Shown piece after piece: positions 13,724 to 51,203 of a stretch of 64,000 nt of DNA. The stretch is from assembly GCF_024204665.1 (NCBI RefSeq), contig NZ_CP100356.1, positions 186,001-250,000 on the forward strand, in the 5' to 3' direction. The translations under genes were made by a program, and so were the position numbers. This DNA is from Natronosalvus rutilus (lineage in GTDB: Archaea; Halobacteriota; Halobacteria; Halobacteriales; Natrialbaceae). The notes below the pieces were generated by a model, which saw nothing but the letters and a program-made list of their open reading frames with translations, ran no database searches and had not been told where the DNA came from. Within the stretch, counting starts at the first letter, position 1; every line of letters begins with the position of its first letter.

Positions 13724-15073
13724 ATGACTTTAGAAGACCTCACCCGTCGCCTTGATGATATGGGTCGGCGACTGGATCGACTTCCAGAAACAGAAGAGCC
13801 CCCACCAACGACACTCCAACTCCTGAATCGAAGTCGGCAAGAAGGTGACTGGCAGCAGCTCCTCGCGTATTTTTTGGATCCAGACGCACCGCATAGGCTT
13901 GACCACGCCGCATTGGAACAGTTTCTGCGTGGGCTCCGAAACCGCGACGATGTCCACTTCGAGCTCTCACGGTTCGATCTTGAGAACATCCAAGTCGCGA
14001 CTGAGGTCCCAATTCCAGACGGTCGGATTGATCTCTTGTTGTGGTGCGAAGAGAAGTGGTTCATCCTCTGTGAATTGAAAATCGACGCCTCCGAAGGGGA
14101 TGGACAGACCATGAAATACGCTGCCGCGGAGACGTTCCAGAATGTCGACCTCGATCCTACGGCAATTACTGAACCTCGCCAGCACTATTTGTTTATAACG
14201 CCAGATGGCTCACCACCGGAATCGGACGCTTTTACTGCAGTCGAGTGGTCGTGGATCGCGTCACAGCTGCGGGCTGTTCTGGATTCAGACTATGGAAGCT
14301 ATCCAGTACGAACGACCAGCCAACTGGACGATTTTGTCGATACGATCGAAACAGAACTTACGATGACTGAACACGAGCAAAACGAGGCTGCGAAGGCCGA
14401 ACTGTACGTCGACTACTACGACGAACTAGCTGAGGTCACAAGCGCGTTCCAAACCGAGTGGGACGATCTCATCGACAACTGGGGCCGCCGGCTCGCGGCG
14501 ACACTTGATGCGGCTCGCCTTGTCGAAGATCCTGAGGGCGTTCCGTCAGTACCTGAGGAGGACGTCCTGCTCGAACTCCCAGACGGCGAAGATCGCCATC
14601 GATACTGGCTGTGTCGACAGGCGAACGGGAACTGGTCGTGGCTGTTCCCGACTGATTGGTGGACGCACTTAGAGCGTGACGAACCGGTCTACCGGAACGA
14701 GAAGCCCAATGCACGCGTCGGATTTCTCCACCGTCCGTCCTCCGACCGAGAGACCGTTCTCGAAAACCACGAACTCACATTCTATCTCCGGAACGCCCCG
14801 TCCGGAAATGACGACTTTTACCCAGGATTCGCGCAGCGCTTTAACGCCGATGACGAGATTCTGGCTGCTCTTCCGGATCGAACTGAGCGGCGTGGTCGGA
14901 AATCGAACGCCCTTGAGGCTACTTACGAAATTGATCTTGACGAGCATGGCGACCTGTTCGCTGGCTACGTCGCTGCGCTAGCGACCGCCGTCGACGAACA
15001 CATCGTATCGAATCACGATTTAGTCGAACGCATCGACGAACTCTATCAGGAAACGCGCGAGGAAGACTTGTAA
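13724..15073 (+). CDS. PD-(D/E)XK nuclease superfamily protein
   Basis: 449 residues. An N-terminal helical segment is followed by a nuclease-like core: E in TEVPIPDG, D103 in GRIDLLLW and E117-x-K119 in LCELKID. This fits the PDDEXK_4-type family found as solitary proteins in mobile regions. The C-terminal half (about 230-449) has no recognised domain but contains repeated Trp/Asp-rich segments (WLCRQANGNWSWLFPTDWW). It stands alone on the plus strand, between dead genes, and could be a solitary restriction-like or anti-phage protein. Substrate is unknown. Confidence 0.75.
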   Translation: MTLEDLTRRLDDMGRRLDRLPETEEPPPTTLQLLNRSRQEGDWQQLLAYFLDPDAPHRLDHAALEQFLRGLRNRDDVHFELSRFDLENIQVATEVPIPDGRIDLLLWCEEKWFILCELKIDASEGDGQTMKYAAAETFQNVDLDPTAITEPRQHYLFITPDGSPPESDAFTAVEWSWIASQLRAVLDSDYGSYPVRTTSQLDDFVDTIETELTMTEHEQNEAAKAELYVDYYDELAEVTSAFQTEWDDLIDNWGRRLAATLDAARLVEDPEGVPSVPEEDVLLELPDGEDRHRYWLCRQANGNWSWLFPTDWWTHLERDEPVYRNEKPNARVGFLHRPSSDRETVLENHELTFYLRNAPSGNDDFYPGFAQRFNADDEILAALPDRTERRGRKSNALEATYEIDLDEHGDLFAGYVAALATAVDEHIVSNHDLVERIDELYQETREEDL

Positions 15074-17543: not shown

Positions 17544-18731
17544 ATGGCCGAGTTTGGTTTCCAACCCACTGGAAACATATTCCGCGAACGCGAGGCGCTG
17601 CTTGAGGAGTGGACGCCCGACGAACTGGTTGGTCGGGACGAGGAGTTACGACAGTACCACGCTGCCCTCCAACCTGTGATCGAGGGGGAGACGCCATCCA
17701 ATATCTTCCTCTATGGGAAAAGCGGCGTTGGGAAGACCGCCGCAACCCGGTTTCTCCTTGAGTTGCTCGAACGCGATTCTCGGGGCGTCGACGGGCTCGA
17801 CCTTCATACCATCGAGATCAATTGCGACGGGCTCAACTCGAGTTACCAGACAGCCGTTACGCTGGTGAACGAATTGCGCGACCCGCGACAGCAGATCTCC
17901 AATACCGGCTATCCCCAGGCGTCGGTGTACGAATTTCTATTCGAGGAACTCGACAAACTCGGCGGTACGATTCTGATCGTCCTCGACGAAGTCGATCACA
18001 TACAGGACGATAGCCTGCTATACAAACTGCCTCGAGCACGATCAAACGGCGATATTGAGGAGGCACGACTCGGCGTGGTCGGGATCTCAAACGATCTCAA
18101 CTTTCAAGACCAACTCAATTCGAAGGTCCGCTCGAGTCTGTGTGAGAAACGAGTGTCATTCAGCGCCTACAACGCGAACGAACTCTGTGAAGTACTACGC
18201 CAGCGCGAGAGCGTGGCTTTCGAGGATGGCGTTCTCGACGATGGCGTAATCCAGATGTGTGCGGCCTATGGGGCGAAAGACTCCGGAGACGCTCGTCAGG
18301 CACTCGACCTCTTACTCGAGAGTGGTGATATCGCCAGAGAGCACAATGTCGAGATGGTCACGGAATCCCACGTTCAGAAAGCCAGAGAGCGCCTGCAACG
18401 CGACCAGATTATCGAGGGTATCCGGAACTACTCCAGGCACGGACAACTCGTCTTGTGGGCGTTGACGTTGCTCGCCGAGGAAGGAAAGACGCCCGCCAGG
18501 ACTCGAGAGGTTCGCCAGCCATACGAAGTGCTCTGTGAGAAAGAGATGAGTGATCCGGTCTCCGATCGGGCCGTTCGCGAGTATCTGGCCGAACTCGAGA
18601 CACTAGGTATCATCAGTTCGAATCAGATCAACCGTGGAAAAGGCGGCGGGAAGTACAAAGAACACGAGTTAGAACAGTCGGTTGCGAGTGTCAAAGCCGG
18701 ATTGTCAGAACTGTTGGATACCGAGGCCTGA
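17544..18731 (+). CDS. orc1: Orc1/Cdc6 replication initiator 2
   Basis: 395 residues, AAA+ plus winged helix. Walker A is GKSGVGKT (58-65), Walker B ILIVLDEVDHI, with GVVGISNDLNFQDQL following; the C-terminal winged helix ends ETLGIISSNQINRGKGGGKY. Overall plan matches initiator 1 but sequence differs in most positions outside motifs, so it is not a recent copy. The five forward boxes of its origin begin at the base after its stop codon. A TATATATA at 17471 lies about 70 bp upstream of the ATG. It should act on the repeats at 18732-19170. Confidence 0.95.
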   Translation: MAEFGFQPTGNIFREREALLEEWTPDELVGRDEELRQYHAALQPVIEGETPSNIFLYGKSGVGKTAATRFLLELLERDSRGVDGLDLHTIEINCDGLNSSYQTAVTLVNELRDPRQQISNTGYPQASVYEFLFEELDKLGGTILIVLDEVDHIQDDSLLYKLPRARSNGDIEEARLGVVGISNDLNFQDQLNSKVRSSLCEKRVSFSAYNANELCEVLRQRESVAFEDGVLDDGVIQMCAAYGAKDSGDARQALDLLLESGDIAREHNVEMVTESHVQKARERLQRDQIIEGIRNYSRHGQLVLWALTLLAEEGKTPARTREVRQPYEVLCEKEMSDPVSDRAVREYLAELETLGIISSNQINRGKGGGKYKEHELEQSVASVKAGLSELLDTEA

Positions 18732-20535: not shown

Positions 20536-22092
20536 TCAGTCCCCGGCAATAGGCCGGTGACTCTCGCCGTTCAACGTCCCACCATTCACACGCACGTCTA
20601 CTGGTGCGTCTCCGCTCCCCGACGTGGGCGAGGATCGGAGTCTGTGTGTCCGCTTCCGGGCGTAGCGTAGCCCGATGTTCTTCGCGCCGTTGTAATCCGC
20701 GTTCACCTCGTATCCGCACTTCTGGCAACAGAAGCGTTCTCCGTGGCGGTTGGCTTCGTGCGTGAATCCACAGTCCGTTCGAGAACAGCGTTGGGAGGTG
20801 TGGTTCGGCTCGACTTGCTCCACGGAGATACCCTGTTCGGGGGCCTTGTAGGAGACGTACTCGTACAGGCGTCGGAACGCCCAGACGTGGTGCCACTTCG
20901 CCCGTGAAAGCCGTTCGCGTATGTCGGTTAAGTCCTCGAACACGATGACGTCGCAACCGCGTTCGGCGGCTTCCGCGACGATTTCGTTGGTGACGGTGTG
21001 GATGTACTGTTTCCGCCATGCTTCTTCGCGTTTTCCGAGTCGAAGCAAGGCGTTGTGTGCGGCCTGCGTGCTGCGCTGTTGCATCTCACCACGTCGCTTC
21101 TCGAACTCACGACACCAGTGGTCGTACTCGTCTCCCTGCCAGAAGGTACCACTCGAGGCTACTGCGAGGCTGTTGACGCCGAGGTCGATACCGAGGACCG
21201 TTTGGTCGGGGTGCCCAGTATCTGCCGGAACCTCCGCGTCGTCACCGTCCACCTCACACCGCCGGGTCGAGATATTGAGGTAGAACTCGTCGGTCGTCGC
21301 GTCGTACCGAAGTGTACTCTCACGGAACTCGTAGTCCTCGAAGAGGACGTACCGCTCGTAGGGCGTCGGACTGTCTGCCGGAAGAACGAACGAGGGTTCG
21401 ACCCGACCCTCAACAGTTGCCAGCGACACCTTGCGTCGGTAGAAGGTCGCGCTCCGCATGTCGTAGTCCATCGTTTCGGCGGTGAACGTCGGACAAGAGA
21501 CACGCTGTCCCTTCTTCCAGCGTTCGACAACACCTTTGATGGCTTCGACGGCGCGACGTATCGCGGCTTGGGCGAGTTGTGCCTGTAGGCCCGTCTCCTC
21601 TCGAAGTTCGGAGTAGAGTGCGTCACGAACCTGCCGTTTGTTGGTCTTGCACTCGGTGTATGAGGCATCGGACCAACAGTAGTCGGCGGTTCGGTTCGCA
21701 CAGTACAGGTATTGCTCGACAGTTCGGCAGAGTGCGTCGCGTTGCTCGTCGGAAACGGCGTTCTCATCAGCGAAGCCGACTGTGACAAGGGATTCGAGGA
21801 ACTCGTCGAACCGCTCGACGTCACTGGGCCTGTCAGTCGCGAGGTGGCGTACCCACTCGATGGCCCATCGGAACGCAGGGTCGGTTCCGCCCTTTCCATG
21901 GATGTACCACCAGCGGGCTGCCTTCAGGACGACGAGCGGGTTCGTCGGTGGCTGCTCACTCGCGAGTTTCCGGGTGAGCGATGTGATCTTCTCGGGCACT
22001 TCGGCGGGATCCACCTCTCCTGATTGGGTGTTCGCTACGTCGACTGGAATCGCATCAATCGAGCTGTCGGTCGAACGATGTTGTTGACTCAC
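20536..22092 (-). CDS. tnpB: TnpB RNA-guided nuclease with foreign N-terminal extension
   Basis: 518 residues, longer than the ~400 usual for this TnpB type. From about residue 115 (QRDALCRTVEQYLYCANRTA) it is a normal TnpB: RuvC D in VLGIDLGVNSLAVAS, E in VIVFEDLTDI, D in VNADYNGAKNIG, and zinc finger CSRTDC ... CCQKC. All catalytic residues are present. Residues 1-~115 (MSQQHRSTDSSIDAIPVDVA ... GGTDPAFRWAIEWVRHLATD) do not belong to TnpB and replace its first ~20 residues. This looks like an in-frame join of a host gene 5' end to tnpB, and it would be transcribed from the host promoter. No tnpA is nearby. Confidence 0.85.
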   Translation of the reverse strand: MSQQHRSTDSSIDAIPVDVANTQSGEVDPAEVPEKITSLTRKLASEQPPTNPLVVLKAARWWYIHGKGGTDPAFRWAIEWVRHLATDRPSDVERFDEFLESLVTVGFADENAVSDEQRDALCRTVEQYLYCANRTADYCWSDASYTECKTNKRQVRDALYSELREETGLQAQLAQAAIRRAVEAIKGVVERWKKGQRVSCPTFTAETMDYDMRSATFYRRKVSLATVEGRVEPSFVLPADSPTPYERYVLFEDYEFRESTLRYDATTDEFYLNISTRRCEVDGDDAEVPADTGHPDQTVLGIDLGVNSLAVASSGTFWQGDEYDHWCREFEKRRGEMQQRSTQAAHNALLRLGKREEAWRKQYIHTVTNEIVAEAAERGCDVIVFEDLTDIRERLSRAKWHHVWAFRRLYEYVSYKAPEQGISVEQVEPNHTSQRCSRTDCGFTHEANRHGERFCCQKCGYEVNADYNGAKNIGLRYARKRTHRLRSSPTSGSGDAPVDVRVNGGTLNGESHRPIAGD

Positions 22093-22557: not shown

Positions 22558-23745
22558 ATGGGGAACTCTACCGCAGAAGCCGATGTATTCGCGCCTCTGG
22601 TAGAGTGGCTCGACGGCCAGGGATACGAGTGTTTCATCCATGTCCCAGGCTCTCACCGCTCGATCAACGGATACGCTCGACTCTACGAACGGTATCCATC
22701 GCACTCGATCACGATCGGGCCGTACAAACCGGACGTCGTCGGGTTCACCCCCGCAAACCGGGTTTTTGCGATCGAAGTCAAAGGAACGGAGAATCTTCGA
22801 AAGGGACTCGGGCAGGCGCTAAGTTACCAGCGGGGCGTCGACCACGCTTACCTCGCAGCGGACGATACCGTGCTGACGCGCGTTCAAGATATCGCCGTCA
22901 GCAAGGGAATTGGAACGCTTGGCGTAAATCCCCAAACGAGTTCGATCTCACAGGAGTTTCCATCATCAGCCGAAATGAAGGATCTCCTCTACAACACACG
23001 CCACCAACTCGAGAACATGCTCGTTACTACCAACGAGTGCTCACGGCGACTCCCGAACTACGCAGATCCGCTAAATCAATTAATGCCCATCGTCGCGATC
23101 GCCAATCACGATCACACGACGGAGGAGGCGATCGGCGATCTCTGTGAGGACGAATCGTACCCATATCGCAGTGCGTATAAACGGATGATTCGACTCGCAG
23201 AGTACCTTGGGATGATCCGTCTCAAGTCCGGTGAGTACCAACTAACGGAACAAGGTTTGATGGGAGAGATCGTACTTCGGGGATATGATGTCGAGACAAT
23301 TTCTGATCTGAAGGCACTGAAGGGCGGTGGGCAACTTTGGAAGAAACATCCTCCCATCGCAACGTACCTTCGCAATCGGTTCGCGTCCAATCCTGATTTC
23401 CGGACACTTTTCGAAGTACTACTGCGTCACGGCAACGGTGGCATCTCGATTCAAGAACTGTGTGGAACCTTGATAGATAACTACCCAAGTACGTTTATAA
23501 ATATAGTGTACACCGATCACGAAGACGACGAGGGGCCCACACTCATCGAACAGGGCCGCGGTCACGAGATCTACAATAACCCCGAGTATCTGAAGCGGAT
23601 CGTCCACAGCCAGTTCATCTCGAATACCGCCAGCCAGTTCAAGAGCCTCGGCGTGCTTGCGTCGGATTCACCCGTCATTGAGCCCAAATCAGCGTTGAAC
23701 CCGGCGACCGACTACTGGTACCCTCGCGAGTTTCAATTGAAGTGA
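22558..23745 (+). CDS. PD-(D/E)XK nuclease-like protein with winged-helix region (copy 1)
   Basis: 395 residues. The N-terminal ~110 residues form a nuclease-like core: D59 in KPDVVGF, E73-x-K75 in FAIEVKG and Q86 in GQALSYQRG, the motif order of Holliday-junction-resolvase/restriction-type enzymes. The middle has a winged-helix-like stretch (TTEEAIGDLCEDESYPYRSA ... MIRLKSGEYQLTEQG). The C-terminal part (PPIATYLRNRF ... PSTFINIVY) is shared with the next gene. The two genes lie head to tail 125 bp apart and form a paralogous pair convergent with the transglycosylase operon. A role as DNA-cleaving partner is inference. Confidence 0.75.
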   Translation: MGNSTAEADVFAPLVEWLDGQGYECFIHVPGSHRSINGYARLYERYPSHSITIGPYKPDVVGFTPANRVFAIEVKGTENLRKGLGQALSYQRGVDHAYLAADDTVLTRVQDIAVSKGIGTLGVNPQTSSISQEFPSSAEMKDLLYNTRHQLENMLVTTNECSRRLPNYADPLNQLMPIVAIANHDHTTEEAIGDLCEDESYPYRSAYKRMIRLAEYLGMIRLKSGEYQLTEQGLMGEIVLRGYDVETISDLKALKGGGQLWKKHPPIATYLRNRFASNPDFRTLFEVLLRHGNGGISIQELCGTLIDNYPSTFINIVYTDHEDDEGPTLIEQGRGHEIYNNPEYLKRIVHSQFISNTASQFKSLGVLASDSPVIEPKSALNPATDYWYPREFQLK

Positions 23746-23870
23746 TCGTACTCGATTAAACGGTATCGGCGAACTGAAGCACTTTACCAGAAAGAGAGTT
23801 AGCTCGTGTATTGACGGACATCATATAATAGGAAGATTGATCGGTTCAGAATGAAGTCATAGTGTAACAG

Positions 23871-25079
23871 ATGGGACTTTCCGAAGAAGAGGTCTTTCAG
23901 AAGGTCACGGAAGAATTAGAGACTCGAGGATACGAGTTCTTCGTTCACTGTGATTATGATAGTATTCTCTCGAAATTCAGATCGCATACAGAATCCATAT
24001 CCGGAAGATATCCCGATGTTCTTGGATTAGCTCCCGACCGCTCAGTCATTGCGATCGAAGTAAAAGGAAGTAGAGACCTCCGAACTGGAAAAGGACAGGC
24101 GTACGACTACAAAGCGGGAGCAAACTATTCGTATCTCGCAGCTGATTCAGATACATTTGAAGGATATCGTAAGACCGTTCGTGACGATGGCTTAGGCGTT
24201 ATCACGGTCTCCACTGATGGTGTTCAGGATTGGAAAGAACCGCCTGCAATAACGAACAAATCACAACTTTCGGAGATACGAGACCGTCTCGCAGCTCGTA
24301 TTCGAGGTGTCGAACCGATTTCGAAGATAACTGGACTAGACCTCGCCCACCCGATTCACTTCCTCGCACCGGCGATATTCTTGGAGAACATTGATAGCTA
24401 TCAAAAAACGATGGGGTATAACGAATTTGTTACTGAATTTGAACGAGAGTATCTCCTCAACGGGGATGCATCGAAAGCGGCGATCGACGGCGCGACAGTA
24501 CTCGGAATTATCGAATCTGGGTCGACGGTTACACTAACGGACAGGGGGCGAATCGGACTCGTGATTTTAAACAACTACGGCGTCGGTACGTTATCAGAGT
24601 TGACACGGTTGAAAGAAGAGACGTCGAATAGCGGTACTCTGTACGATGTCGCCCCTTTGCTCGCAGTGTGGCTACTTGATCAGTATCGAAAACACCCCGA
24701 TTTTGAAGCGTTATATCGTACGATACAATCGTTCGATCCGGAGGTACCAATACTGCTTACCGAACTCGTAGAACTGTTAATTCGAGACTATCCGAACACT
24801 TTCCTTCAGATGTTTTGCACTGATTCGACCGAATCCTGTGATCAAGCACGAAAACTACTCTTAAAAGGAAACGTAGAACGGATTTACGAAGACGTTGACT
24901 TATTTCGCCAAATAATCCGCCAAAACCTCGTTCAAAATTTCTCCCGGCAACTCCAACATGTCGGACTCCTCTCTAAGCGGACATCGTCGACGACAGTACG
25001 TCTCGACGAATATTATCCCGATGAGTATCCTTGGTATCGTCGATCAACAGTACGAAACGCTCGCCTATTTGACCATTGA
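23871..25079 (+). CDS. PD-(D/E)XK nuclease-like protein with winged-helix region (copy 2)
   Basis: 402 residues, paralogue of the preceding gene. The nuclease-like motifs are D49 in YPDVLGL, E63-x-K65 in IAIEVKG and Q76 in GQAYDYKAG. The later regions (LTDRGRIGLVILNNYGVGTL, PLLAVWLLDQYRKHPDFEAL, YPNTFLQMFCTD) align with copy 1. Codon choice is less GC-rich than copy 1, so the copies are old or of separate origin. It ends 55 bp from the convergent AAA+ gene. Two such subunits could form a heterodimeric nuclease; this has not been demonstrated. Confidence 0.75.
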   Translation: MGLSEEEVFQKVTEELETRGYEFFVHCDYDSILSKFRSHTESISGRYPDVLGLAPDRSVIAIEVKGSRDLRTGKGQAYDYKAGANYSYLAADSDTFEGYRKTVRDDGLGVITVSTDGVQDWKEPPAITNKSQLSEIRDRLAARIRGVEPISKITGLDLAHPIHFLAPAIFLENIDSYQKTMGYNEFVTEFEREYLLNGDASKAAIDGATVLGIIESGSTVTLTDRGRIGLVILNNYGVGTLSELTRLKEETSNSGTLYDVAPLLAVWLLDQYRKHPDFEALYRTIQSFDPEVPILLTELVELLIRDYPNTFLQMFCTDSTESCDQARKLLLKGNVERIYEDVDLFRQIIRQNLVQNFSRQLQHVGLLSKRTSSTTVRLDEYYPDEYPWYRRSTVRNARLFDH

Positions 25080-25133: not shown

Positions 25134-26291
25134 CTAGAGCGAATCCTGCACGAACTCGTTAGTGATCGTAGTGCGTTGCTCTCTCGAGGCTGTATCGAGC
25201 AACCGACTACAGACTGAGAGCACCTGACGAATATTCCCCTGCGACCGCTGGAGAATCAGGTCGAGCGATTCTTCCGTGAACGGTGAAATGTCCGATGAGT
25301 TAGTGAGCTCCCCCCGTTCTCGCTCGAGGTACCGCTCAACTAGTTCGTACAGGTCCTCGTTCGTTAATGGCCGCAGCGCAACTTCCTGCCCAATGCGCTC
25401 GCTGAACGCGTGGTACTCACTCATCACGTCCTGCCAGACTTCGGGTGCACAGCCGAACAGCATACAAAGTCCGTGACTGTTCTGGTCCATCAGGTGCCGA
25501 ATACTGTTGAGCGTCGATTGCTCGTCTTTCGACGACAACCGTCCAATACTCTCGAATTCGTCGACGAACACGAAGACGGCAGTATACCCCAACTCCAAAA
25601 ACAGGCTCTTCAGGGCCGTGAACGCTCTGACACCCATCGTATCGTCGTCCAAGGCAGTATGAATTTCCATCTCCTTGCGCTGCTCGTATCGAATACCCTC
25701 TGCGGTCAGCCACTGCCAGGCGTAGAGGTTCGTGTCCTCGTAGACCATGTGGACGATTGCCCTCGCAAAATCTGCGAACCGTGTTGTATCGCTCAACCGC
25801 TTGATCGCCGTCGGGACGATCTCCGAGAGGAGTACGTCGCCGTCGTTGATGAGCGACCGCATCGTGTTCGCGCTCATTGGGTTCCGATCCGTCACATCGC
25901 ACGTGATTTTCGCGAGGTACTGGTATGCGATGTCCTGTATCTGGGTGAATCCGAGATCGTAGACGAATTCGTGGTAGATGTCGATGAACCCTTCTCCAGG
26001 TTGTGCGACATATCCGACAATCGCATCCTCTCGATCCTGAACAAGCGATCGGGTGTATTTGAGCGTGTGCGACTTTCCGTTTCCGTACTTCCCGGTGATG
26101 ACGAGATGCTTCGACTTTCCCGTCGACAGTGTCGTAGACACCGTCGAACTGATCTCATTAGTTGCGTGTTCTTGGCCGCAGTAGAGTTCTGGATTCTCTG
26201 CGGGAACTGGACTGTACGGGAATGGGTTCGCCTCGAGGCCGAATTTCGAGTAGTCTTGCTGCTGGTCGGTAATATTGAATGCTTCACTCAT
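25134..26291 (-). CDS. AAA+ ATPase of the transglycosylase operon
   Basis: 385 residues. It opens FGLEANPFPYSPVPAENPEL, has Walker A GKYGNGKS (67-74), Walker B VFVFVDEFESIG, and a sensor-like SHGLCMLFGCAPEVW. The C-terminal section (ALRPLTNEDLYELVERYLER ... RSQGNIRQVLSVC) resembles the lid of ExeA/Orc-like AAA+ proteins. It is the last gene of a three-gene operon, overlapping the previous gene by 4 bp (ATGA). By position it is likely to work with the DpdA-like enzyme, perhaps loading or remodelling DNA; the biochemical role is unknown. Confidence 0.8.
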   Translation of the reverse strand: MSEAFNITDQQQDYSKFGLEANPFPYSPVPAENPELYCGQEHATNEISSTVSTTLSTGKSKHLVITGKYGNGKSHTLKYTRSLVQDREDAIVGYVAQPGEGFIDIYHEFVYDLGFTQIQDIAYQYLAKITCDVTDRNPMSANTMRSLINDGDVLLSEIVPTAIKRLSDTTRFADFARAIVHMVYEDTNLYAWQWLTAEGIRYEQRKEMEIHTALDDDTMGVRAFTALKSLFLELGYTAVFVFVDEFESIGRLSSKDEQSTLNSIRHLMDQNSHGLCMLFGCAPEVWQDVMSEYHAFSERIGQEVALRPLTNEDLYELVERYLERERGELTNSSDISPFTEESLDLILQRSQGNIRQVLSVCSRLLDTASREQRTTITNEFVQDSL

Positions 26292-27187
26292 GGGTTTGTG
26301 TCTGGTGTGAACGTGATGTCGCGGTCGTACACCGCGAGGTAGTAGTACTGCTTGTCGAACTGTTCGAGCCCGGCCATTACCTGTTGGGTCGATTGTGACG
26401 TCGAAACCAACGATTCGCCGTCAGCAAGTTCGATTCGTTTGATCCCCAATACAGAATTTTTGGCGGTCGTATCTAACGGTGCACCCGAGAGTTCGAGTTT
26501 GCCAACGTTCTCGCTGCACAGTGTGGCCAGTCCTTGATCGAACGCGTCTCGAGTACACCCGAGTCGCTCACAAGTTCGTTCACGGAGCTTGGGGATTGAG
26601 AGGTACCGCTGGCGGAGGTTGACACCGGCGGTTTCCTCTAGTTCGTCGTAGAGCTCGAGAAGGATGTATTGGAAGTTCTTTGGCACGCTGTTTCGAGAGG
26701 CAACATAGTAGTCGCCAGTAAATGCGTTCCGCTGGACTCCTCCCAGTCGCTCTCCCCAATCGCCGACAACTTCGATTCCCGTTTGATTGAACGAATACAG
26801 CGAGAATTCATATTCGGCTTTGAGGAACTCGAGTAACGAATCAGTGTCCGTTGGCCCACGTTCAGCGAGTGCGTCGAGAAACGCTCCGTAGTGTGGGCTA
26901 CGAACGGCAAGAATGTCGTCGGCTTCCGACCACGTTTCGGATCGGATCGCCTCTAAGAATTGTTCACCGATCGGAGTCGTCGAGTAGGTTGGCTCCTCCT
27001 GGTCGCCATCTTCGCGGAGGAGAGCAATTCGCGTCGCCTCGAGAATCGTCTCTCGTGCTCGTCTATGCGTTATGGAGAGCGTTTCTTCGATGTCATCGGT
27101 TGTTCTTCGAGTTCCTTCACACAGGTGTGTGAGTTCAGTGAGGCGGGCCAGTGTAACGGGACGGACCGTCGCACGTTCGGATGTCAC
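26288..27187 (-). CDS. Winged-helix protein between dpdA-like and AAA+ genes
   Basis: 299 residues beginning at a GTG that overlaps the dpdA stop by 4 bp. The N-terminal third is a helix-turn-helix/winged-helix (TTDDIEETLSITHRRARETI ... TPIGEQFLEAI). The remainder has no recognised domain. In layout it resembles the 287-residue winged-helix gene at 36084-36947, which also accompanies an ATPase, so the two may be functional analogues. Resemblance to DpdG-type proteins of bacterial dpd islands is possible but not established from sequence alone. Confidence 0.65.
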   Translation of the reverse strand: MTSERATVRPVTLARLTELTHLCEGTRRTTDDIEETLSITHRRARETILEATRIALLREDGDQEEPTYSTTPIGEQFLEAIRSETWSEADDILAVRSPHYGAFLDALAERGPTDTDSLLEFLKAEYEFSLYSFNQTGIEVVGDWGERLGGVQRNAFTGDYYVASRNSVPKNFQYILLELYDELEETAGVNLRQRYLSIPKLRERTCERLGCTRDAFDQGLATLCSENVGKLELSGAPLDTTAKNSVLGIKRIELADGESLVSTSQSTQQVMAGLEQFDKQYYYLAVYDRDITFTPDTNP

Positions 27188-28218
27188 GCTAACCTCCGTA
27201 CCTGCTGTTTAGCGGTCCTGTAGGCTCGTTGTGTGACCTCGTTTCCCCGAAACCGAAGATCCAGGTAGTCCTCGATGTCTCTTCCGGACGACGATACGTA
27301 CCGAAACCGACGGAGTTCCGTCGTTAACGCCCACAGGTTGTGTTGCGTGAGTGCATTACGGTCCGCTCTGATCTCCTCAAGAGTCCGCTCACCACAGATT
27401 GGGCACGAGCACGGGAGGTACTCGAGGTCGTCGATATTCCACAGTTCTTCACCGCCGAATCCCGGTATCAGATAGTTCCGGTTTCCAGCGCTCCGAATGA
27501 ACGCCGAGGAATCGAAACTATCGACACCCAGATAGAGTAACAGGGGTTGGTAGACGAGGCCGCCGAGTCCGTATACGTGCAAGTGTTTGTCTGTTGCCGT
27601 TCGCGCTGCCAGTACCAACTTCGTGACTTTCGTATAATCTGTCCTAACGGGGACAAGACTTCCCAGAGCATACCCGTCGAAATTCCCTCGCTTCTCGAGG
27701 TATCGGATACTGTTTCGAATCGTCTCTGGATCGTACCCGTGGACGCTCGCGAAGAGTGACGCCTCTCCGTTGTGTTGTTCACTCGCCGCCAGTGCGAAGT
27801 TGATACTCTGATCGATCCGTCGCTGGTTTTCTGTCGATCGATTTTGCCTCGAGAGAGGGATATCGACCGTCCCAATAATGTCCGCCTTGAGTTGTCGTTG
27901 CGTCGCAAGGGTTTCTTCGGGAGTCGTATCCAGGTCTTCGTTTGTGAAATCGAACCCTCCGCTATCAGCGTAAACGATCGTGTGTTCCGGGACGTTCATC
28001 TCTTCTCGAAGCGATACACCGTTGGTCAACCGATCCCACATCGGATCTCTATTCCTAATCGCTCGGGCGTTGATCATCGCTGTCGGTAGATCTGGAATAG
28101 AATCGATGTACTGCGGGGTATTGTCGCTCGATCGTTTTCCCAGATTTCGGACCGGGAATAAAATTGGAGTTTGCAACTCCCCATGTGGGAGATCAAGCGT
28201 TTGTTGTCGAAACAACAT
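27184..28218 (-). CDS. dpdA: DpdA-type guanine transglycosylase (TGT superfamily)
   Basis: 344 residues from the ATG at 28218. TGT hallmarks: D85 in ADSGGFDF (substrate aspartate), the FDGYALGSLVP strand corresponding to GYAIGGLAVGE, GVDSFDSSAF with the nucleophile aspartate (D233 or D236), and a zinc site C270-x-C272-x2-C275 ... H293. It lacks the C-terminal tRNA-binding PUA region of the archaeosine enzyme and is shorter than bacterial Tgt. In bacterial dpd islands this family swaps preQ0 for guanine in DNA. Here it leads an operon of three overlapping genes, and preQ0 genes lie at 49-51 kb. DNA as substrate is inference from context and size. Confidence 0.8.
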   Translation of the reverse strand: MLFRQQTLDLPHGELQTPILFPVRNLGKRSSDNTPQYIDSIPDLPTAMINARAIRNRDPMWDRLTNGVSLREEMNVPEHTIVYADSGGFDFTNEDLDTTPEETLATQRQLKADIIGTVDIPLSRQNRSTENQRRIDQSINFALAASEQHNGEASLFASVHGYDPETIRNSIRYLEKRGNFDGYALGSLVPVRTDYTKVTKLVLAARTATDKHLHVYGLGGLVYQPLLLYLGVDSFDSSAFIRSAGNRNYLIPGFGGEELWNIDDLEYLPCSCPICGERTLEEIRADRNALTQHNLWALTTELRRFRYVSSSGRDIEDYLDLRFRGNEVTQRAYRTAKQQVRRLA

Positions 28219-28360
28219 CCTCAACTTCGACTAAGCTGTTCCGTCAGATAGGTAATAGCCCTCTATTACGAATAACTCAACTGATAATGAGAATATTCAA
28301 AATTTGCCAAATTGCACTAGTCCAATAAGTGGAGTAGAAGGCGTTTCAACGGAAAACATG

Positions 28361-28920: not shown

Positions 28921-29622
28921 TCAAAATTCACTCAGGTCTCTTTGCGAGGTCGGGCTACCAAGACACGCCGCTTTTACGTCATCGGATGATGTGAACTCGG
29001 CCCCCAAAGCGAGATTATCGGCGAAATTCTTCAGATAGGCTCCTTTTAACGCGACAACAATTGAACCCTGTTCTTTCGCTTGTTTGGTGCGAGCAGGGAT
29101 CGAGACAACATTGTCGAATTGCTCCGCGAGTTCTTCTTGGTTGAAAGCCACTGCCAGTGTTTCGGGTGGCAGTGAAGACACCACGTCGGGCATGTCTAAC
29201 GCTCGGTAGTAGTCGGTTCCAAGAGGGAAGAATATGAGATCGTACGTCAAAGCAGTCGCCAGTTCTCGGACTCGACGGGAAATCCCGAGAGTCTCGGAGC
29301 GGGATTCAATCTCCTTCGCCGTCATCTCCGCGAACGTGACGTTATACGGGGGGAGTTCTTCGTCCTCTTCGACGACTCCGAACCCAGCGCTGATGAAGTA
29401 CCGATTGATGGCGTGTCCGTTGGCACGGAGCGAGTCGATCGCATCACCGATGTACTGCTGTTGACGACCGGTGTAGAGTTTCCGTGCTGGGATGCTGGCT
29501 ACTCCTTCACGAGCACGGAGTGAGTCGAGACTCGACTCATCAAGTTCCGGCGCATCGTATACTGCACTATCGTTCGGATATGATTTACTGTTCGAACACT
29601 GATCGACGATGAGGATTTTCAT
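28921..29622 (-). CDS. DUF6884-type protein paired with large transglycosylase
   Basis: 233 residues. It begins MKILIVDQCSNSKSYPNDS and has IPARKLYTGRQQQYIGDAID and YFISAGFGVV, the arrangement of the DUF6884 family (normally CSxxK ... PAxxLYxS ... SAKHG). It starts 2 bp after the large transglycosylase stop, so the two are translationally linked. The family is often found beside nucleic-acid modification genes; its reaction is not known. A second, truncated relative is at 15252-15685. Confidence 0.7.
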   Translation of the reverse strand: MKILIVDQCSNSKSYPNDSAVYDAPELDESSLDSLRAREGVASIPARKLYTGRQQQYIGDAIDSLRANGHAINRYFISAGFGVVEEDEELPPYNVTFAEMTAKEIESRSETLGISRRVRELATALTYDLIFFPLGTDYYRALDMPDVVSSLPPETLAVAFNQEELAEQFDNVVSIPARTKQAKEQGSIVVALKGAYLKNFADNLALGAEFTSSDDVKAACLGSPTSQRDLSEF

Positions 29623-29624
29623 GA

Positions 29625-31829
29625 CTAAAACTCCATTAACCCTTTCTGCACCATGAACTCAGGCAGAAACTCGCTGTCGTATCCAAGCTGGTCGAGAACG
29701 GCCGCTCGGAACTCCGACGGCACTTGGTACGACGCTATCGTGCATCCTTGTTGTTCAATCCGTTCAACGACGTCAGGGTGAATAGTCTTGTCAGGGTCGT
29801 ACAGGAACACTTTCTGATATCGTGCACAGAACTCGCCGACAGACGCCGCCATCTCGGTCGGATCAAGCGAAACCGTCGTCGGTGGTTCCGACCACCACTC
29901 GTGAATTCCTTCAGCGCTTATGACTCCGACCTCCGCTACAGGAAGATCGTGGACATCCGACCAGAAGTCCGTCTGCTCGGTGAGGAAGTATCCCTCCACA
30001 GAACTCCACGACGTCAGGGAGTCGGAGGCAGGCATCGCGACGAGAGTCTTTGGAAGCGCTTCCCGAAATTGGTCATAAAACCGTTTCGTGTTGTGAAACC
30101 CACGGCGCCGGTTTCGGTTATTCGCCCGGAAGATCGCCACTTCGATGCCATGCTCTCTGCAGATCCGACAGTCACACTCTTTCCACGGCTCCTCTCGAAG
30201 GAGTCGCTTGTACTCCTCGAGTAATCGCTCGTCGCCTATCCACGACGCGTAATCTTCCACGAGTAGCCAAATCTGATCGAACGTGCCGGTGTCGCCCGAG
30301 TATTTTTCGCGCTGTTCAATGGTCTCTGCCATTCTGGGGAAGGTTCCGTCGAACTGCTCTCGAGCGGTATCGATCAATGATTGGTATTTGTCGAAGTCTA
30401 GTGGTGACTTGGGATTGTCGTCTCTAAGCAACTTGATTACGGCATTACGGAGAGGGCGACTGAAACTCGCCCGGAGTTCGCGACCGTACTCGTAGTCGTC
30501 CCGGAAATGCTCCTCGATGTCACGGAGAAGGCGTTGATCGTACGCGTCGTCGTGTCTATGCGTTTTCAAGTATGGCGCCAGTCCGTCCAGTGCGCGTTCT
30601 GCGTCTGTGACCCACGCTCGGATGGCCTTAGAAATCAATTCCCCCTCGTCGAAGGCGCGAAGTGAATGAAGGAGTTCCTGACCACGCAGGGCAATTTGAA
30701 TCCGCTTTTCGAGTGAGTCTCGGTTCGATCCAAATCGAACACGAAGTGCATCGTATCGTCGTTCGCTATCGAGGTGGTAGTTGTCGCCACCGGTCCAGGC
30801 TGACCGAAGCATACTTGCGCTGTCGAAGCTCGACATTCCGGTCTGTCCGATTGCATCGAATGCATCCGTTTTGGCAAACCCGAATACGTGTGTGTCAACC
30901 CTCGTTTTTCGAGTACGTTCGTGCTCCTTGACTGCGTTTCCGACGCCTGTGACGATATCACGGATTCTGGCAGCGTTACTTCCTGCGACGCCACCGATTC
31001 CAATGTACTGGTATCCACGTTCAAGCACCTGTTCAGCAGCACGGGCGTACGATATTGGATCCCATCCCTGAATAGCGACCATCAGACGGAATGAGTAGTC
31101 GTTAGCGTCGTACAGTTCCTTCATCTCCCTGGCGTTGTTGAGGGTCAATTGATACCGAAACTCTGTGTCGTCCTCACGGTAAACAGCACGAGGATCAGTA
31201 CAGAGCCGCTCGAGGACTGCGACTGGATCACCTTCGAAGTCCTCCGGCTCGAACTGGTTTACTGAAGGGGCATCGCAAATCGTTGAATCGTAATCCTCGA
31301 CATATGCAGGCCACTCCGACGGCCATTCATCGATCATCACATCGACCTCATCAGTCAACTCTTTGGGGAGTTCACTGGGTGTGAATTCTGCATCAGCGAA
31401 CGCACGTTTGTCGAGATATAGACGGGTCTCGTGACCGGAGCCAAGTACGAGATGATCGATCGTCACCCCAACTGTAACATCGAGGTTCTCGTAAAACGCC
31501 AACATTTCGTCGTTGTCATAGGGTGGGAATGGGAGCGTTTTGTATCCCCAGGCGCCGCAGTCGCTAATCGTCGGAAGCCAATTGGGGATATTGAGATTGG
31601 ACTGTTCGTCGTAAACACCGTGGGACGTAAGCCGATCGAACTTCGTCGCGCTCTCTTCGACCTGTTCACGTGAGATTAGAACCCCGTCGATCGGGGTGGT
31701 CTCATAGTCAAAGATGTCCCAAATATACTGCAACTGGCGCTCGTCTTTTCCGAGTTCCGAATGCTCGTCGTGCTCAAAATCGTAGTGAGCGTCGACGTTG
31801 TCATCCCATTCAGGAACGTAAAACCTCAC
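29625..31829 (-). CDS. Large TGT-superfamily protein (second DpdA-like enzyme)
   Basis: 734 residues, GTG start. The TGT barrel elements are spread out: D90 in ISDCGAWGYK (equivalent of DSGGF), VAIQGWDP and YQYIGIGGVAG (glycine-rich recognition loop), D336 in GMSSFDSASMLR (nucleophile equivalent), and zinc ligands C552-x-C554-x2-C557 ... H579. A 180-residue insertion precedes the GG loop and ~145 residues follow the zinc site with no recognised fold. Keeping all catalytic and zinc positions suggests an active enzyme that differs from the 344-residue DpdA-like protein. It is followed at once by the DUF6884 gene. Confidence 0.75.
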   Translation of the reverse strand: MRFYVPEWDDNVDAHYDFEHDEHSELGKDERQLQYIWDIFDYETTPIDGVLISREQVEESATKFDRLTSHGVYDEQSNLNIPNWLPTISDCGAWGYKTLPFPPYDNDEMLAFYENLDVTVGVTIDHLVLGSGHETRLYLDKRAFADAEFTPSELPKELTDEVDVMIDEWPSEWPAYVEDYDSTICDAPSVNQFEPEDFEGDPVAVLERLCTDPRAVYREDDTEFRYQLTLNNAREMKELYDANDYSFRLMVAIQGWDPISYARAAEQVLERGYQYIGIGGVAGSNAARIRDIVTGVGNAVKEHERTRKTRVDTHVFGFAKTDAFDAIGQTGMSSFDSASMLRSAWTGGDNYHLDSERRYDALRVRFGSNRDSLEKRIQIALRGQELLHSLRAFDEGELISKAIRAWVTDAERALDGLAPYLKTHRHDDAYDQRLLRDIEEHFRDDYEYGRELRASFSRPLRNAVIKLLRDDNPKSPLDFDKYQSLIDTAREQFDGTFPRMAETIEQREKYSGDTGTFDQIWLLVEDYASWIGDERLLEEYKRLLREEPWKECDCRICREHGIEVAIFRANNRNRRRGFHNTKRFYDQFREALPKTLVAMPASDSLTSWSSVEGYFLTEQTDFWSDVHDLPVAEVGVISAEGIHEWWSEPPTTVSLDPTEMAASVGEFCARYQKVFLYDPDKTIHPDVVERIEQQGCTIASYQVPSEFRAAVLDQLGYDSEFLPEFMVQKGLMEF

Positions 31830-32490: not shown

Positions 32491-33183
32491 TTATTCACCC
32501 CGCAGTTGAAGACTCAGATGCGCACCTAACGATCCCTGCAGTTCGTCGATTTCCTTGTCGGATAGAGACGACAACTGAACCGAACCCCCAGAGATGAGGG
32601 ATCGCACGTGCTCTTCGGCTCCCGAGCCACGGAACGGTTCCATGAGTTTGTTCTCAATATTCTCTAACTCTATGACTACATTTTGACGCACCTGCTTCCG
32701 AATCGATTGTTCTTGCTCCGAAAACTGTTTATCAGTTTGATAACTCACTTCATCTAGATCCTCAATTTCCTCCTCAATTATCCGAATGCGATCCGGTGGA
32801 ATACGATTAGTTCGCTGGTTGAGTGAATTGAGTCCCTTCAGATGTGAACTCAATTTATGTTTTACCCCCTGAATCTCGCCCCGAATTCGCTGTTCTTCTT
32901 CGTCCAATGCCTCCGTTAGCCCGGTCAGTTTGTCTTCGGTTCGGTCGAATTGATTGGATTCCCACGCTGTCTTCACCTGTTCGACTTTCTGTACCGTTTC
33001 GTCACTCGGACTGAAACCCTCGATGTTGCTCTTTTTTCCACCAGACAACTCCTCAAACCTCGCCCCGAGAAGTACCGTCTTACGCATTGTCTGAACAGCG
33101 TCTTCCAGTCGCGAGGCCAGCTGCTGGTTTCGATGCTGCTCGTAGTACGCTTCGAGTTGACGTTCTAGTTCACTGATTGGCAT
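32491..33183 (-). CDS. Coiled-coil protein, third gene of ATPase operon
   Basis: 230 residues, largely helical with heptad-like Leu/Gln/Glu spacing (residues ~80-195) and no catalytic motif. Its start overlaps the end of the 970-residue ATPase gene by 14 bp, which indicates coupled translation and probably a stoichiometric complex. The position and size are like DpdI of bacterial dpd islands, but that equivalence is a guess from gene order. Confidence 0.65.
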   Translation of the reverse strand: MPISELERQLEAYYEQHRNQQLASRLEDAVQTMRKTVLLGARFEELSGGKKSNIEGFSPSDETVQKVEQVKTAWESNQFDRTEDKLTGLTEALDEEEQRIRGEIQGVKHKLSSHLKGLNSLNQRTNRIPPDRIRIIEEEIEDLDEVSYQTDKQFSEQEQSIRKQVRQNVVIELENIENKLMEPFRGSGAEEHVRSLISGGSVQLSSLSDKEIDELQGSLGAHLSLQLRGE

Positions 33184-36082
33184 ATATTTCGCTCATTTTT
33201 AAGAAGCTATCAGATTCGATTTCACTAGACCCCGTCTCTAGATCTAGGGCTAGGATTCGTTTCGTAGCTTCGTGTCCGAATATTGCGAGACCAAGAAGAT
33301 GTGCCTGTTGCTGTTTACTATTGGAGCTGGCCTGATCGAGATCTTCGTGGATCGTACAGGACTCCAGTAGGTTCTCGATCTTCTGATCAGATACCTTTGA
33401 AAAGGTAATCAGATTTTCTCGGACACCCGAATCGACGCTATCGTATGTTTTGAGCTTCTTCGTTATATCACGGACATTTTCCATATCGATCCCACGCAAC
33501 TGCTCGTTGACGAAACGAGGTGCAACATCTGCTTCTTCGCCCGCTGGTAAGTCATCCAATTTCCGGATAGTTCTGTATACCTGCAACCCCACTTCTCGGA
33601 GATGTGTATCCGTGTCAAATCGAACTTTCGCTGGAAGATCACTAAGTGCACTCTTCGTGAGACGCCCTCCGATATCGAACGGGTGAGATCCTTTAAGGAT
33701 CTCATTCAATCGAGGTACATCGACAACGTTACTGCTGATCGCGAATACGTCCCCAAACAGTGACTCGATCGGATCGATGAAATCGAAAATGTTCGTAATT
33801 CCGTCATAGGTTTCCTTGTCGGCAAAATCCTTCAGCATTTCATCTAGGTCATCGTCTATCTCAGGTCGTGTGTTGGCGGTATAGAGCGACGAAAGTCGTT
33901 TACCAGTAACTTGCTGGCTCGGATCAGATAGAATCGCCAGTACTCCGTATGCGCTCGCGACGAACTCTTCAAAAGTACTATTCCGATGACTTGTCCCGTA
34001 GAAGTATTTTGGAGCCAGATACGCGCCACGAACGTGTTCCTGCCATTGCTGAGCGTAGCCGGCGAGTTGTGATCCGTTTCGATCAAACAACTCTTTGTAA
34101 TCGGCTCGGCTCGGATCCAGATCTCGCGTGATACCGAACTTGAGTAGTTTCAGAAGCTGTGGATGGGTGAATTCCGTTGGATCGATCTGAATTTGATCTG
34201 TTTCCGCTGGTCCACCATCGGTGAAGGTGAAGGGGTGGCGTTCGCTCCCTACTAACACTTCCAAATCGCCGTCAGGAAACATCTCGAATCCATTTGTAAG
34301 TCGATCAATCGCGTCCGTTAACCCTCGTTTAATGTACACATCCACCTCTGAGGCCTTCTGATTCTGCGTGTCCGATTGCCACGTATCGATGTGCTTTCTG
34401 GCTTCATCGTAGCGCTCCTGAACCGGATCCTTTTTGTTTTCCTTTATATCGCCATTGCCGCCGCCAGATATCGCTCCCTCCGTCAACGGGATAACAAGAG
34501 TGTCAACTCCGTCGATTTCAGTTCTCGTGATATCGTACTCTTCAAAGAGTTCTGGCTCGTCGATTCCGAACGCTCTAGCGAATCGCCGATCGACAGTCAC
34601 TACGCTCTTGCCGTCCATCTCTTGCTGTGCCCCGTACCACTGTGCAAGCCGTCGAAGGGGTTCGTTTTCGTAAATGTCCTCGTTGTCAAGTACAATCGAG
34701 TTGGACAGCACGTCATCGATCTCACTCCATGCAGCAGGGACGGTCACATCTCCGTGATAGTACGCACTCAGAATCTTCGAGATCGTCTGGATGTATATTC
34801 GGGGTCGCTGCTCTTCATCGGGCAACCCTTCATATATCCGATCAATGAACGTCTCGTTGAATGGGAATACGTCCCTAAACGTTTCGTCGCAGAACGTACA
34901 CCGAGCGCAGATACTTTGATTCTTAGGTTGGCGAAGTTCACTTTTCCGATCTTCGTCGACGTACCTGACGCTGTTATCACGATTTTTTACGTAGCCGAGA
35001 AACGGTCGGGCGAAATCCACTGCCGAGTCCTCATTCAAGAAGAGGACATGATTGGAATCGCGCTTATTGGTTCGGTAGAACCGGATCCACTCACGATCCT
35101 TTGCTGTGTTCGTCTCTAGGGTGCGTGTCGATTCTTGTGTTCCTGCGATGATGAAATCCCACGTGTTCTCGGGGGAGTCCTGTTCGATGTACTCCTGTAG
35201 TCGTTGAGCATCGAGCGCCGAGACAGAGAAATCTTCGAAGACGAGAACTGGGCGTTCGTCGAGATTTTCAGCAACTTCAGCTAAAAGTGAATCCATTGTT
35301 GGTGTTCCGTAGTCCTGACGGATTGCTGTCCAGATAGCCTCATTCCAATGTTCAGCTGCGGTTTCGTCATCCACGTCCTCGAACACGTTGAGGAAGTTGT
35401 ATTGTGCTATCTCGTTGGCTTCGTCGGAGACGGTAATGAACTCAATTTTCGTTGCGAACTCTCCCCGTTGAGCTAACTTCGTGATTTTTTTCTCGATGAA
35501 GTCGATGACGTCGTCTTCTTGGTCGTTGGTCAAGTCGACTGTACTACTATCCAGATCTGCAATCGTGAGCATCGCCCCTGACGTGATACGCTTTGCGACG
35601 AGACCTCGGTGCTGTCGAACCTGTCGCCTCAGTTTCTCCAGTTGATCCCTCTCCTCTAACGTGTCCCCTCCTGAGACCCGCTCATAGAAGTCCGGGATCT
35701 CCTCAGCCATGATTGTAAGCAAATCCGCATTCTTATCGATGTGGAGGACATTCCGCCCCGCCTCTTTGAGTTCTAACGAAAGATACGCACAGAGTTCGGA
35801 TTTCCCTGTGCCGACGTTCCCGTCGATTATCGTGACGAGATTCCGTCGACGCTGCTTCAAGAACTCGGAGAGAATTTTATCTTCCTTGACTTCCCTCTCC
35901 TCTCCGCTGTGTTTCTCGAATACTGTGATCGGACGATGGGTGAACCGGAACAGATCTGGCCGATCAGACCGAACCTTCGCGACCTCACTAAACAGATCAT
36001 CAAAGAGTTCTTCATCGATTTTCTGATAGTGAGGACACAAACTCCCGTCAGGCGGTGAGACCTCTGTAATTTCAGTAGTCAT
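33170..36082 (-). CDS. 970-residue P-loop ATPase (DpdH-like?)
   Basis: Walker A GNVGTGKS at 88-95 (IIDGNVGTGKSELCAY) and a Walker B-like VLVFEDFSVSAL near residue 280. A C-x2-C-x2-C cluster (CARCTFC) sits mid-protein. The N-terminal HRPITVFEKHSGEEREV segment precedes the ATPase core. The remaining ~600 residues are helical and unrecognised. It is the middle gene of a three-gene operon (1-bp gap from the winged-helix gene, 14-bp overlap with the coiled-coil gene). The set resembles DpdG-DpdH-DpdI of bacterial 7-deazaguanine islands, but the DptF or PbeABCD ATPases of phosphorothioate systems are an alternative. Confidence 0.7.
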   Translation of the reverse strand: MTTEITEVSPPDGSLCPHYQKIDEELFDDLFSEVAKVRSDRPDLFRFTHRPITVFEKHSGEEREVKEDKILSEFLKQRRRNLVTIIDGNVGTGKSELCAYLSLELKEAGRNVLHIDKNADLLTIMAEEIPDFYERVSGGDTLEERDQLEKLRRQVRQHRGLVAKRITSGAMLTIADLDSSTVDLTNDQEDDVIDFIEKKITKLAQRGEFATKIEFITVSDEANEIAQYNFLNVFEDVDDETAAEHWNEAIWTAIRQDYGTPTMDSLLAEVAENLDERPVLVFEDFSVSALDAQRLQEYIEQDSPENTWDFIIAGTQESTRTLETNTAKDREWIRFYRTNKRDSNHVLFLNEDSAVDFARPFLGYVKNRDNSVRYVDEDRKSELRQPKNQSICARCTFCDETFRDVFPFNETFIDRIYEGLPDEEQRPRIYIQTISKILSAYYHGDVTVPAAWSEIDDVLSNSIVLDNEDIYENEPLRRLAQWYGAQQEMDGKSVVTVDRRFARAFGIDEPELFEEYDITRTEIDGVDTLVIPLTEGAISGGGNGDIKENKKDPVQERYDEARKHIDTWQSDTQNQKASEVDVYIKRGLTDAIDRLTNGFEMFPDGDLEVLVGSERHPFTFTDGGPAETDQIQIDPTEFTHPQLLKLLKFGITRDLDPSRADYKELFDRNGSQLAGYAQQWQEHVRGAYLAPKYFYGTSHRNSTFEEFVASAYGVLAILSDPSQQVTGKRLSSLYTANTRPEIDDDLDEMLKDFADKETYDGITNIFDFIDPIESLFGDVFAISSNVVDVPRLNEILKGSHPFDIGGRLTKSALSDLPAKVRFDTDTHLREVGLQVYRTIRKLDDLPAGEEADVAPRFVNEQLRGIDMENVRDITKKLKTYDSVDSGVRENLITFSKVSDQKIENLLESCTIHEDLDQASSNSKQQQAHLLGLAIFGHEATKRILALDLETGSSEIESDSFLKMSEIYANQ

Positions 36083-36083
36083 G

Positions 36084-46198: not shown

Positions 46199-46203
46199 CC
46201 TGT

Positions 46204-49793: not shown

Positions 49794-49938
49794 GAGTATC
49801 AACTGCCGAACGCCCTACTCGATCAGGGTTCTCTCCCAGCGCCTCAAGTAGCATACGCGTGGCGCGTTGGGCTTTCTGCCGGGTAATACCGGATGACTCG
49901 CTGTTCTCTGTATTCGGCTGATGCTGTTGTCTCGTCAT
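49786..49938 (-). pseudogene. folE: GTP cyclohydrolase I (FolE) N-terminal stub
   Basis: ATG at 49938 overlaps the queE stop by 4 bp and opens a 50-codon frame: MTRQQHQPNTENSESSGITR followed by QKAQRATRMLLEALGENPDR, the amphipathic opening helix and GENPDR turn of FolE. Where EGLxxTPxR should follow, the frame runs into VGRSAVDTHE and stops inside the queC start. About 75 per cent of a normal FolE is missing, including all catalytic zinc ligands. It looks like an internal deletion that joined the folE start to queC. Confidence 0.6.
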
Positions 49939-51172: not shown

Positions 51173-51193
51173 ACTTGGAGCATACTTGGAGAG

Positions 51194-51203
51194 CATATAA
51201 GCT
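51194..51203 (-). promoter_or_regulatory. queD: TATA box of the que operon
   Basis: AGCTTATATG on the minus strand. Between it and the ATG at 51172 lies a tandem CTCCAAGTATG repeat that could be an operator or chance. Confidence 0.35.

Follow-up and report, generated by a model that had tools for sequence, protein, structure and literature searches.

Tandem PD-(D/E)xK proteins of a haloarchaeal 7-deazaguanine island as candidate restriction enzymes with a Type IIS-like predicted domain plan

Two neighbouring genes for diverged PD-(D/E)xK proteins sit in a haloarchaeal 7-deazaguanine island that is Dpd-like and, as judged from its gene content, of the BRIGADE type. We propose, with the balance standing about even, that the two proteins are accessory Type IIS-like restriction enzymes that recognize different sites and are blocked by the 7-deazaguanine mark. 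The proposal starts from what is observed directly, namely the genes, their motifs, the selection acting on them, their co-occurrence with modification genes and their synteny. The stretch analysed (64,000 nucleotides, hereafter the window) is part of a 340-kb contig of a haloarchaeal genome; the nearest plasmid relatives of this contig are haloarchaeal, among them those of Natronorubrum aibiense (Natrialbaceae) and Natronococcus sp. CG52. The two genes are arranged as follows.

22558–23745, plus strand: nuclease 1 (gene 1, P0001), 395 aa, open reading frame confirmed
23746–23870, plus strand: intergenic gap between nucleases 1 and 2, compared with that of genome G087
23871–25079, plus strand: nuclease 2 (gene 2, P0002), 402 aa, open reading frame confirmed; architecture as in nuclease 1, separate old clade, sole orthologue in G087 (93%)

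The original prediction of two tandem, diverged PD-(D/E)xK paralogues is upheld: both reading frames are present and the proteins are 28% identical over 400 columns, i.e. over their full length (BLASTP, E = 1e-43). Their nuclease motifs are likewise intact, as had been claimed. The series E7...P58-D59...E73-V-K75...Q86...Y90 (gene-1 numbering) occurs in both, with D59, E73, K75 and Q86 invariant in 50 of 50 full-length relatives and in all 43 rows of a second alignment, E7 kept in 47 of the 50 and Y90 in 49. The superfamily feature, a D and an E-x-K on the core fold, is thus present as invariant residues together with a model match to 3dnx and NucS. The orthologues in G087 are 94% (nuclease 1) and 93% (nuclease 2) identical, and the corresponding dN/dS ratios of 0.08 and 0.11 indicate that both genes are under purifying selection. 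Direct family assignment through Pfam, NCBIfam, PADLOC and PDB sequence searches was tried and gave nothing significant; in particular, the C-terminus has no significant match to a model from any of these sources.

The AlphaFold2 model of nuclease 1 (pLDDT 86, pTM 0.71) predicts a PD-(D/E)xK domain (residues 1–157), a low-confidence linker (about 157–163, or 159–162 by the model) and a helical, winged-helix C-domain of recognition type (164–395). The nearest folds to the modelled N-domain are the MmcB-like protein SPO1766 (3dnx, Z 11.8), NucS (Z 9.1) and XisH (Z 8.2), all of which differ from the present proteins in C-terminal domain and genomic context. In a Foldseek search with the nuclease 1 model the first two rows are the Type IIS enzyme PaqCI (best E 5e-3), and residues 160–395 align with the recognition region of FokI (VIA; Z 8.2, 175 residues, rmsd 4.2). 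The C-domain of nuclease 2, modelled separately (pLDDT 87.6), gives a similar picture: among the 50 matches listed, five cover about 170 residues, and all five are recognition regions of FokI (2fok; Z 7.8, rmsd 3.8, 174 aligned), N.BspD6I (2ewf; Z 7.0, rmsd 5.5, 177 aligned) or PaqCI (8epx; Z 7.0, rmsd 4.2, 166 aligned), although Z values of 7–8 and a Foldseek E of 5e-3 are modest and a common wHTH arrangement could account for the match. In PaqCI the cleavage domain comes first, as in the nucleases here (PMC10201449). The models thus point to a Type IIS-like domain plan, in which a PD-(D/E)xK domain is linked to a recognition domain of winged-helix type as in PaqCI, FokI and N.BspD6I, and suggest that the C-domain is a Type IIS-like target-recognition domain. 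The long C-terminus that the original prediction described as shared and unrecognized is indeed shared and matches no sequence model significantly, but it does resemble something in structural models. The likeness stops short of sequence: sequence profiles gave no match of the nucleases to Type IIS enzymes, and there is no detectable sequence similarity to them. Comparison of clade means gives about 28% identity for the C-domains of nucleases 1 and 2 and 36% for the N-domains, a divergence that is in line with different sites without proving them.

The nucleases face a modification core, beyond which the other genes of the island extend.

25134–26291, minus strand: BrxD-like ORC/Cdc6-type AAA ATPase, conserved core gene, the last one of that core before the convergent nucleases (PF10923, 3.5e-16)
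26288–27187, minus strand: winged-helix (wHTH) core protein, in 58 of 391 genomes, 55 of those with DpdA
27184–28224, minus strand: second TGT, TgtA-like (TIGR00432, 137 bits; NF041059, 35 bits against a cut-off of 200)
28921–29622, minus strand: DpdC-like DUF6884 protein (PADLOC DpdC, 5e-13)
29625–31829, minus strand: DpdA proper (NF041059, 272.6 bits against a cut-off of 200)
32491–33183, minus strand: coiled-coil protein encoded last in the STAND operon, with a homologue directly upstream of nuclease 1 in G387
33170–36082, minus strand: STAND/DpdH-like ATPase (weak PADLOC DpdH match), with homologues in other islands
36084–36947, minus strand: uncharacterized STAND-operon protein, likely winged-helix by inspection, conserved in G387, no PADLOC or NCBIfam match
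37846–38778, minus strand: uncharacterized helicase-operon protein, conserved in G387
38797–43548, minus strand: large DruE/DpdJ-like helicase, read as YprA/DUF1998 type, a type found in three DpdA-positive genomes only
49095–49802, minus strand: QueC (TIGR00364, 7e-52)
49935–50711, minus strand: QueE
50711–51196, minus strand: QueD

The convergence on a dpdA–wHTH–AAA operon that had been described needs one correction. The nucleases do face an AAA–wHTH–TGT operon, but the TGT in it, which had been taken for dpdA, is not DpdA; the latter lies at 29625–31829. The STAND/DpdH-like operon follows at 32491–36947 on the minus strand. Across the 391 genomes of the class, DpdA occurs in 56, the wHTH protein in 58 and both together in 55, and almost all loci examined show synteny of DpdA, DpdC, TGT2, wHTH and AAA. 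The restriction modules around this core vary: a DruE/DpdJ-like helicase with a PLD nuclease, CARF with STAND, a four-gene cassette, and the present nucleases. The cassette, of large proteins (clusters c125, c65, c66 and c67), recurs beside haloarchaeal dpd cores (L068, L105 and, in parts, L104 and L109) and may be another restriction module. Almost every haloarchaeal island examined has the TgtA-like second transglycosylase as well as DpdA.

Several further genes of the window were noted in passing. An McrBC-like pair lies inside the island (44804–48423; an McrB-type AAA protein and a PD-(D/E)xK-looking partner), with relatives near the nuclease loci L034 and L057. Another PD-(D/E)xK-looking protein (13724–15073; GRIDLLL...ELKI...GQ) is encoded 7 kb from nuclease 1. 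Two TnpB-like genes are present, one directly upstream of nuclease 1 (20536–22092) and one at 9303–10547, as are two Orc1/Cdc6-like genes close to the island (11164–12366 and 17544–18731), the second of which has a 79% homologue beside the nuclease pair of G087.

Haloarchaeal Dpd-like islands have been named BRIGADE, and they are reported to have PD-(D/E)xK nucleases in place of PLD nucleases on occasion (Bell et al., 2025, preprint; PMC12458937). BRIGADE is a Dpd-like 7-deazaguanine island of halophilic archaea only, with a large helicase and a PLD or PD-(D/E)xK nuclease nearby. The window agrees with this description: a halophilic archaeon carries 7-deazaguanine synthesis and insertion genes (DpdA, a second TGT, DUF6884 and QueC/D/E), and the nuclease in the neighbourhood is represented by two PD-(D/E)xK proteins. 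No PLD nuclease gene was detected for this island. Two YprA-like helicases are usual, though not obligatory; here, two queries found one large helicase of this type in the genome itself. With the bacterial Dpd system (dpdA–K) the island shares DpdA, a DpdC-like DUF6884 protein, preQ0 genes and DpdH-like and DpdJ-like proteins, but its core differs in containing a second TGT, a wHTH protein and a BrxD-like ATPase, and no PLD nuclease was detected in it. The bacterial set of DpdB plus dpdD–K was not recovered as such: no DpdB was found among the scanned window proteins, and DpdH and DpdJ are weak matches only.

Strong relatives of the nucleases occur in 52 of the 391 genomes and fall into four groups in the tree: the nuclease-1 clade, a clade of G167, G274 and G371, the nuclease 2 group and a large clade of singletons. 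Against a base rate of 56 DpdA-positive genomes in 391, all nine genomes of the nuclease-1 clade carry DpdA (p = 1.4e-8, or 1.1e-7 without the window, three broken copies being counted in), with the proviso that genome counts are not phylogenetically independent; the clade covers eight genera and two families. In G125 and G104 nuclease 1 adjoins the AAA gene of the core, as it does in the window with gene 2 in between; in G386, G292, G387, G264 and G290 it shares a contig with DpdA, at a distance of about 20–39 kb; in G087 nuclease 1 and DpdA are on different contigs. The G167/G274/G371 clade is DpdA-positive in three of three genomes, its G167 member being one gene from AAA. In G234 and G304 there are genes close to the core with which nuclease 2 forms a weak group (94/78); the G234 member adjoins DpdA, and the genomes with nuclease 2 or these tentative relatives are all DpdA-positive (4/4). 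To a second half of the superfamily belongs a distant subfamily whose genes directly follow AAA in G038, G225 and G111. Since several subfamilies adjoin core AAA or DpdA genes, superfamily members have these neighbours repeatedly, across several lineages. The predicted association between the nucleases and dpd islands is therefore real and recurrent, and it is specific to subfamilies, the clearest being the nuclease-1 clade. It counts against our proposal that in most DpdA-positive islands no member was detected within about 10 kb of the core. Searches with the nucleases against genome-contig and viral-contig collections, and with the cyanobacterial protein described below against phages, found no relatives, so that a viral origin is not indicated.

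The largest clade behaves differently. Its 34 singleton genomes carry DpdA in four cases, which is the base rate (p = 0.75), and a search for a constant neighbour found none. Homologues occurring as singletons in unrelated contexts, which would speak against a role in the island, thus describe this clade and with it the family as a whole, but not the nuclease-1 clade. The largest clade also counts against our proposal: it shows neither a DpdA association nor a methyltransferase motif close by, and the proposal does not explain how its carriers would be protected. Type IV enzymes have neither feature, and the window also has its McrBC-like pair, so that one may think of modification-dependent, Type IV-like nucleases directed against foreign DNA with other modified bases and stacked in the same defence island. 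We regard this as quite unlikely; it gives no reason for the restriction of the gene-1 clade to genomes with deazaguanine insertion genes (9/9).

The second half of the superfamily also holds a chromosomal sister family of the same architecture, found in 95 of 145 haloarchaeal genomes. One example is an unnamed PD-(D/E)xK protein of about 415 aa (L070:8222–9472, G096); in the genome that contains the window, no member of this type was detected. Restriction enzymes are not usually so widespread, and the wide occurrence of the family hints at some housekeeping function, perhaps in repair, which again weighs against our proposal, as does the proximity in the models of the N-domain to MmcB-like 3dnx and to NucS, the latter a repair nuclease. 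The same two observations could mean that the window nucleases are repair- or replication-type enzymes from this widespread family, carried as cargo with no restriction role. We consider this improbable in view of the strong and repeated dpd linkage, which includes a cyanobacterium, and of the repeated loss of the nuclease while the modification core persists.

This loss has been seen three times. In G104, nuclease 1 is split near the domain junction by an insertion of about 170 bp (L037:560–735) whose ends are inverted (GGCTCTGGTGAATC/GATTCACCAGAGCC) and which apparently duplicated 8 bp of the target; in G264 it is frameshifted and stopped; and in G290 it is truncated. The modification core appears intact in all three genomes, an indication that modification does not depend on the nuclease. 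Restriction lost with modification kept is the pattern that a restriction component would show, and the three broken copies beside intact-looking cores thus support the restriction reading.

A restriction role could also be exercised through other proteins of the island, the two nucleases being effector subunits of the helicase/STAND complex, in the usual place of the PLD nuclease, and recruited by the helicase rather than by recognition of a site of their own. The replacement of PLD by PD-(D/E)xK nucleases in BRIGADE, as reported in the preprint (PMC12458937), is in favour of such a role, and the three DpdA-positive genomes with a window-type helicase all have nuclease 1 and no PLD gene. Moreover, in G387 nuclease 1 lies directly downstream of the STAND/helicase genes. 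On the other hand, G104, one of these three genomes, is the one with the insertion-interrupted copy, nuclease 1 and a PLD nuclease occur together in six of the nine genomes and both are present in the cyanobacterial cluster, nuclease 1 of the window is at least 7 kb from the STAND/helicase genes, and the large C-domain resembles a recognition domain. Replacement of PLD as a general rule was accordingly rejected, as it holds for islands with the window-type helicase only (3/3, one nuclease 1 being broken). We judge the effector role unlikely, while leaving it some weight.

The two nucleases had further been suggested to be the cleaving pair of the system, possibly as a heterodimer. The comparative data do not bear out a functional pair or a heterodimer. 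The tandem pair is found in two of the 391 genomes, the window and G087, and the contig carrying the G087 pair (65 kb, examined in full) has no detected dpd-core gene, the core genes being on two other contigs. Gene 1 occurs without gene 2 in seven of nine genomes, three of those seven copies being broken. The two genes fall into different old clades, by which the tree rules out a recent tandem duplication. The last 55 bp or so before gene 2, with the TATA-like box CATATAATAG, are nearly identical in G087 while the rest of the gap differs, so that gene 2 is likely to be transcribed from a promoter of its own. No such conservation between the window and G087 is seen in the 3′ flank of gene 1, and in G104 gene 1 directly faces AAA across a 51-bp gap; gene 2 with its upstream sequence thus looks like a separate cassette. 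An obligate heterodimer, for which one may cite the identical order and orientation of the pair in two genomes at 93–94% identity, is highly improbable given the seven genomes with gene 1 alone, the separate old clades and upstream sequences, and the completeness of both active sites. In G304 two different superfamily members are present in one island, and several specificities gathered under one protective mark fit better than an obligate heterodimer.

Outside the archaea, the bacterial evidence consists of one complete plasmid locus and one remnant. Plasmid pMIC7113.07 of Allocoleopsis franciscana PCC 7113 encodes a relative of full length, P0012 (396 aa), in which PD...EAK...Q is kept (hhalign probability 99.5, E = 5e-23). 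A DndB-like gene, which is probably the counterpart of DpdB, precedes it by 48 bp; genes for QueD, a PLD nuclease, a DpdC–DpdA fusion and a helicase with relatives among the haloarchaeal helicases all lie no more than 12 kb away. A 294-aa 'hypothetical' protein adjoining the nuclease (L147:2922–3806) resembles, by eye, another TGT-type barrel. Euhalothece natronophila retains an N-terminal remnant, 67% identical, shortly before queD. We suggest, more tentatively and somewhat short of even confidence, that a Type IIS-like enzyme family is common to haloarchaeal and cyanobacterial dpd clusters, with several specificities under one shared mark, a transglycosylase-inserted 7-deazaguanine instead of a methyl group.

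A scheme for the proposed Type IIS-like action can be drawn from these data. The N-terminal cleavage domain would be joined by a flexible linker to the winged-helix recognition domain, in the manner of FokI, N.BspD6I and PaqCI; the C-domain would bind a short G-containing site, and the N-domain would cut nearby, probably after self-association. The two nucleases would have different sites and act separately, with no obligate heterodimer. DpdA, the second TGT and the DpdC-like enzyme would, together with QueC/D/E, produce the mark, and this deazaguanine, not methylation, would shield host DNA by altering the face that guanine presents to the major groove. We infer from this scheme that unmodified DNA would be cut and DNA with the modified base spared. 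A linked protective methyltransferase is usual, but not defining, for Type IIS enzymes. Within 6 kb of the 52 relatives no DNA methyltransferase motif of NPPY or PCQ type was found by a simple regular expression, a result in keeping with our proposal, though from a weak test; the lack of such a motif nearby and a proposed deazaguanine mark set these proteins apart from Type IIS enzymes.

That PD-(D/E)xK nucleases occur in such islands is already known in general terms (PMC12458937), and the available text of that preprint contains neither this nuclease family nor its C-domain nor the cyanobacterial relative. In the literature searched, the definition of the family, its Type IIS-like plan, the clade-specific tie to DpdA and the cyanobacterial case appear to be new. 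The finding bears on how Dpd-like islands restrict unmodified DNA, and by which nuclease. It offers a self-contained candidate restriction enzyme that co-occurs with modification genes in archaea and in a cyanobacterium, and that could be purified directly and assayed on modified and unmodified DNA. If it does cut at a defined site and is blocked by deazaguanine, it would be a useful reagent to map deazaguanine modification.
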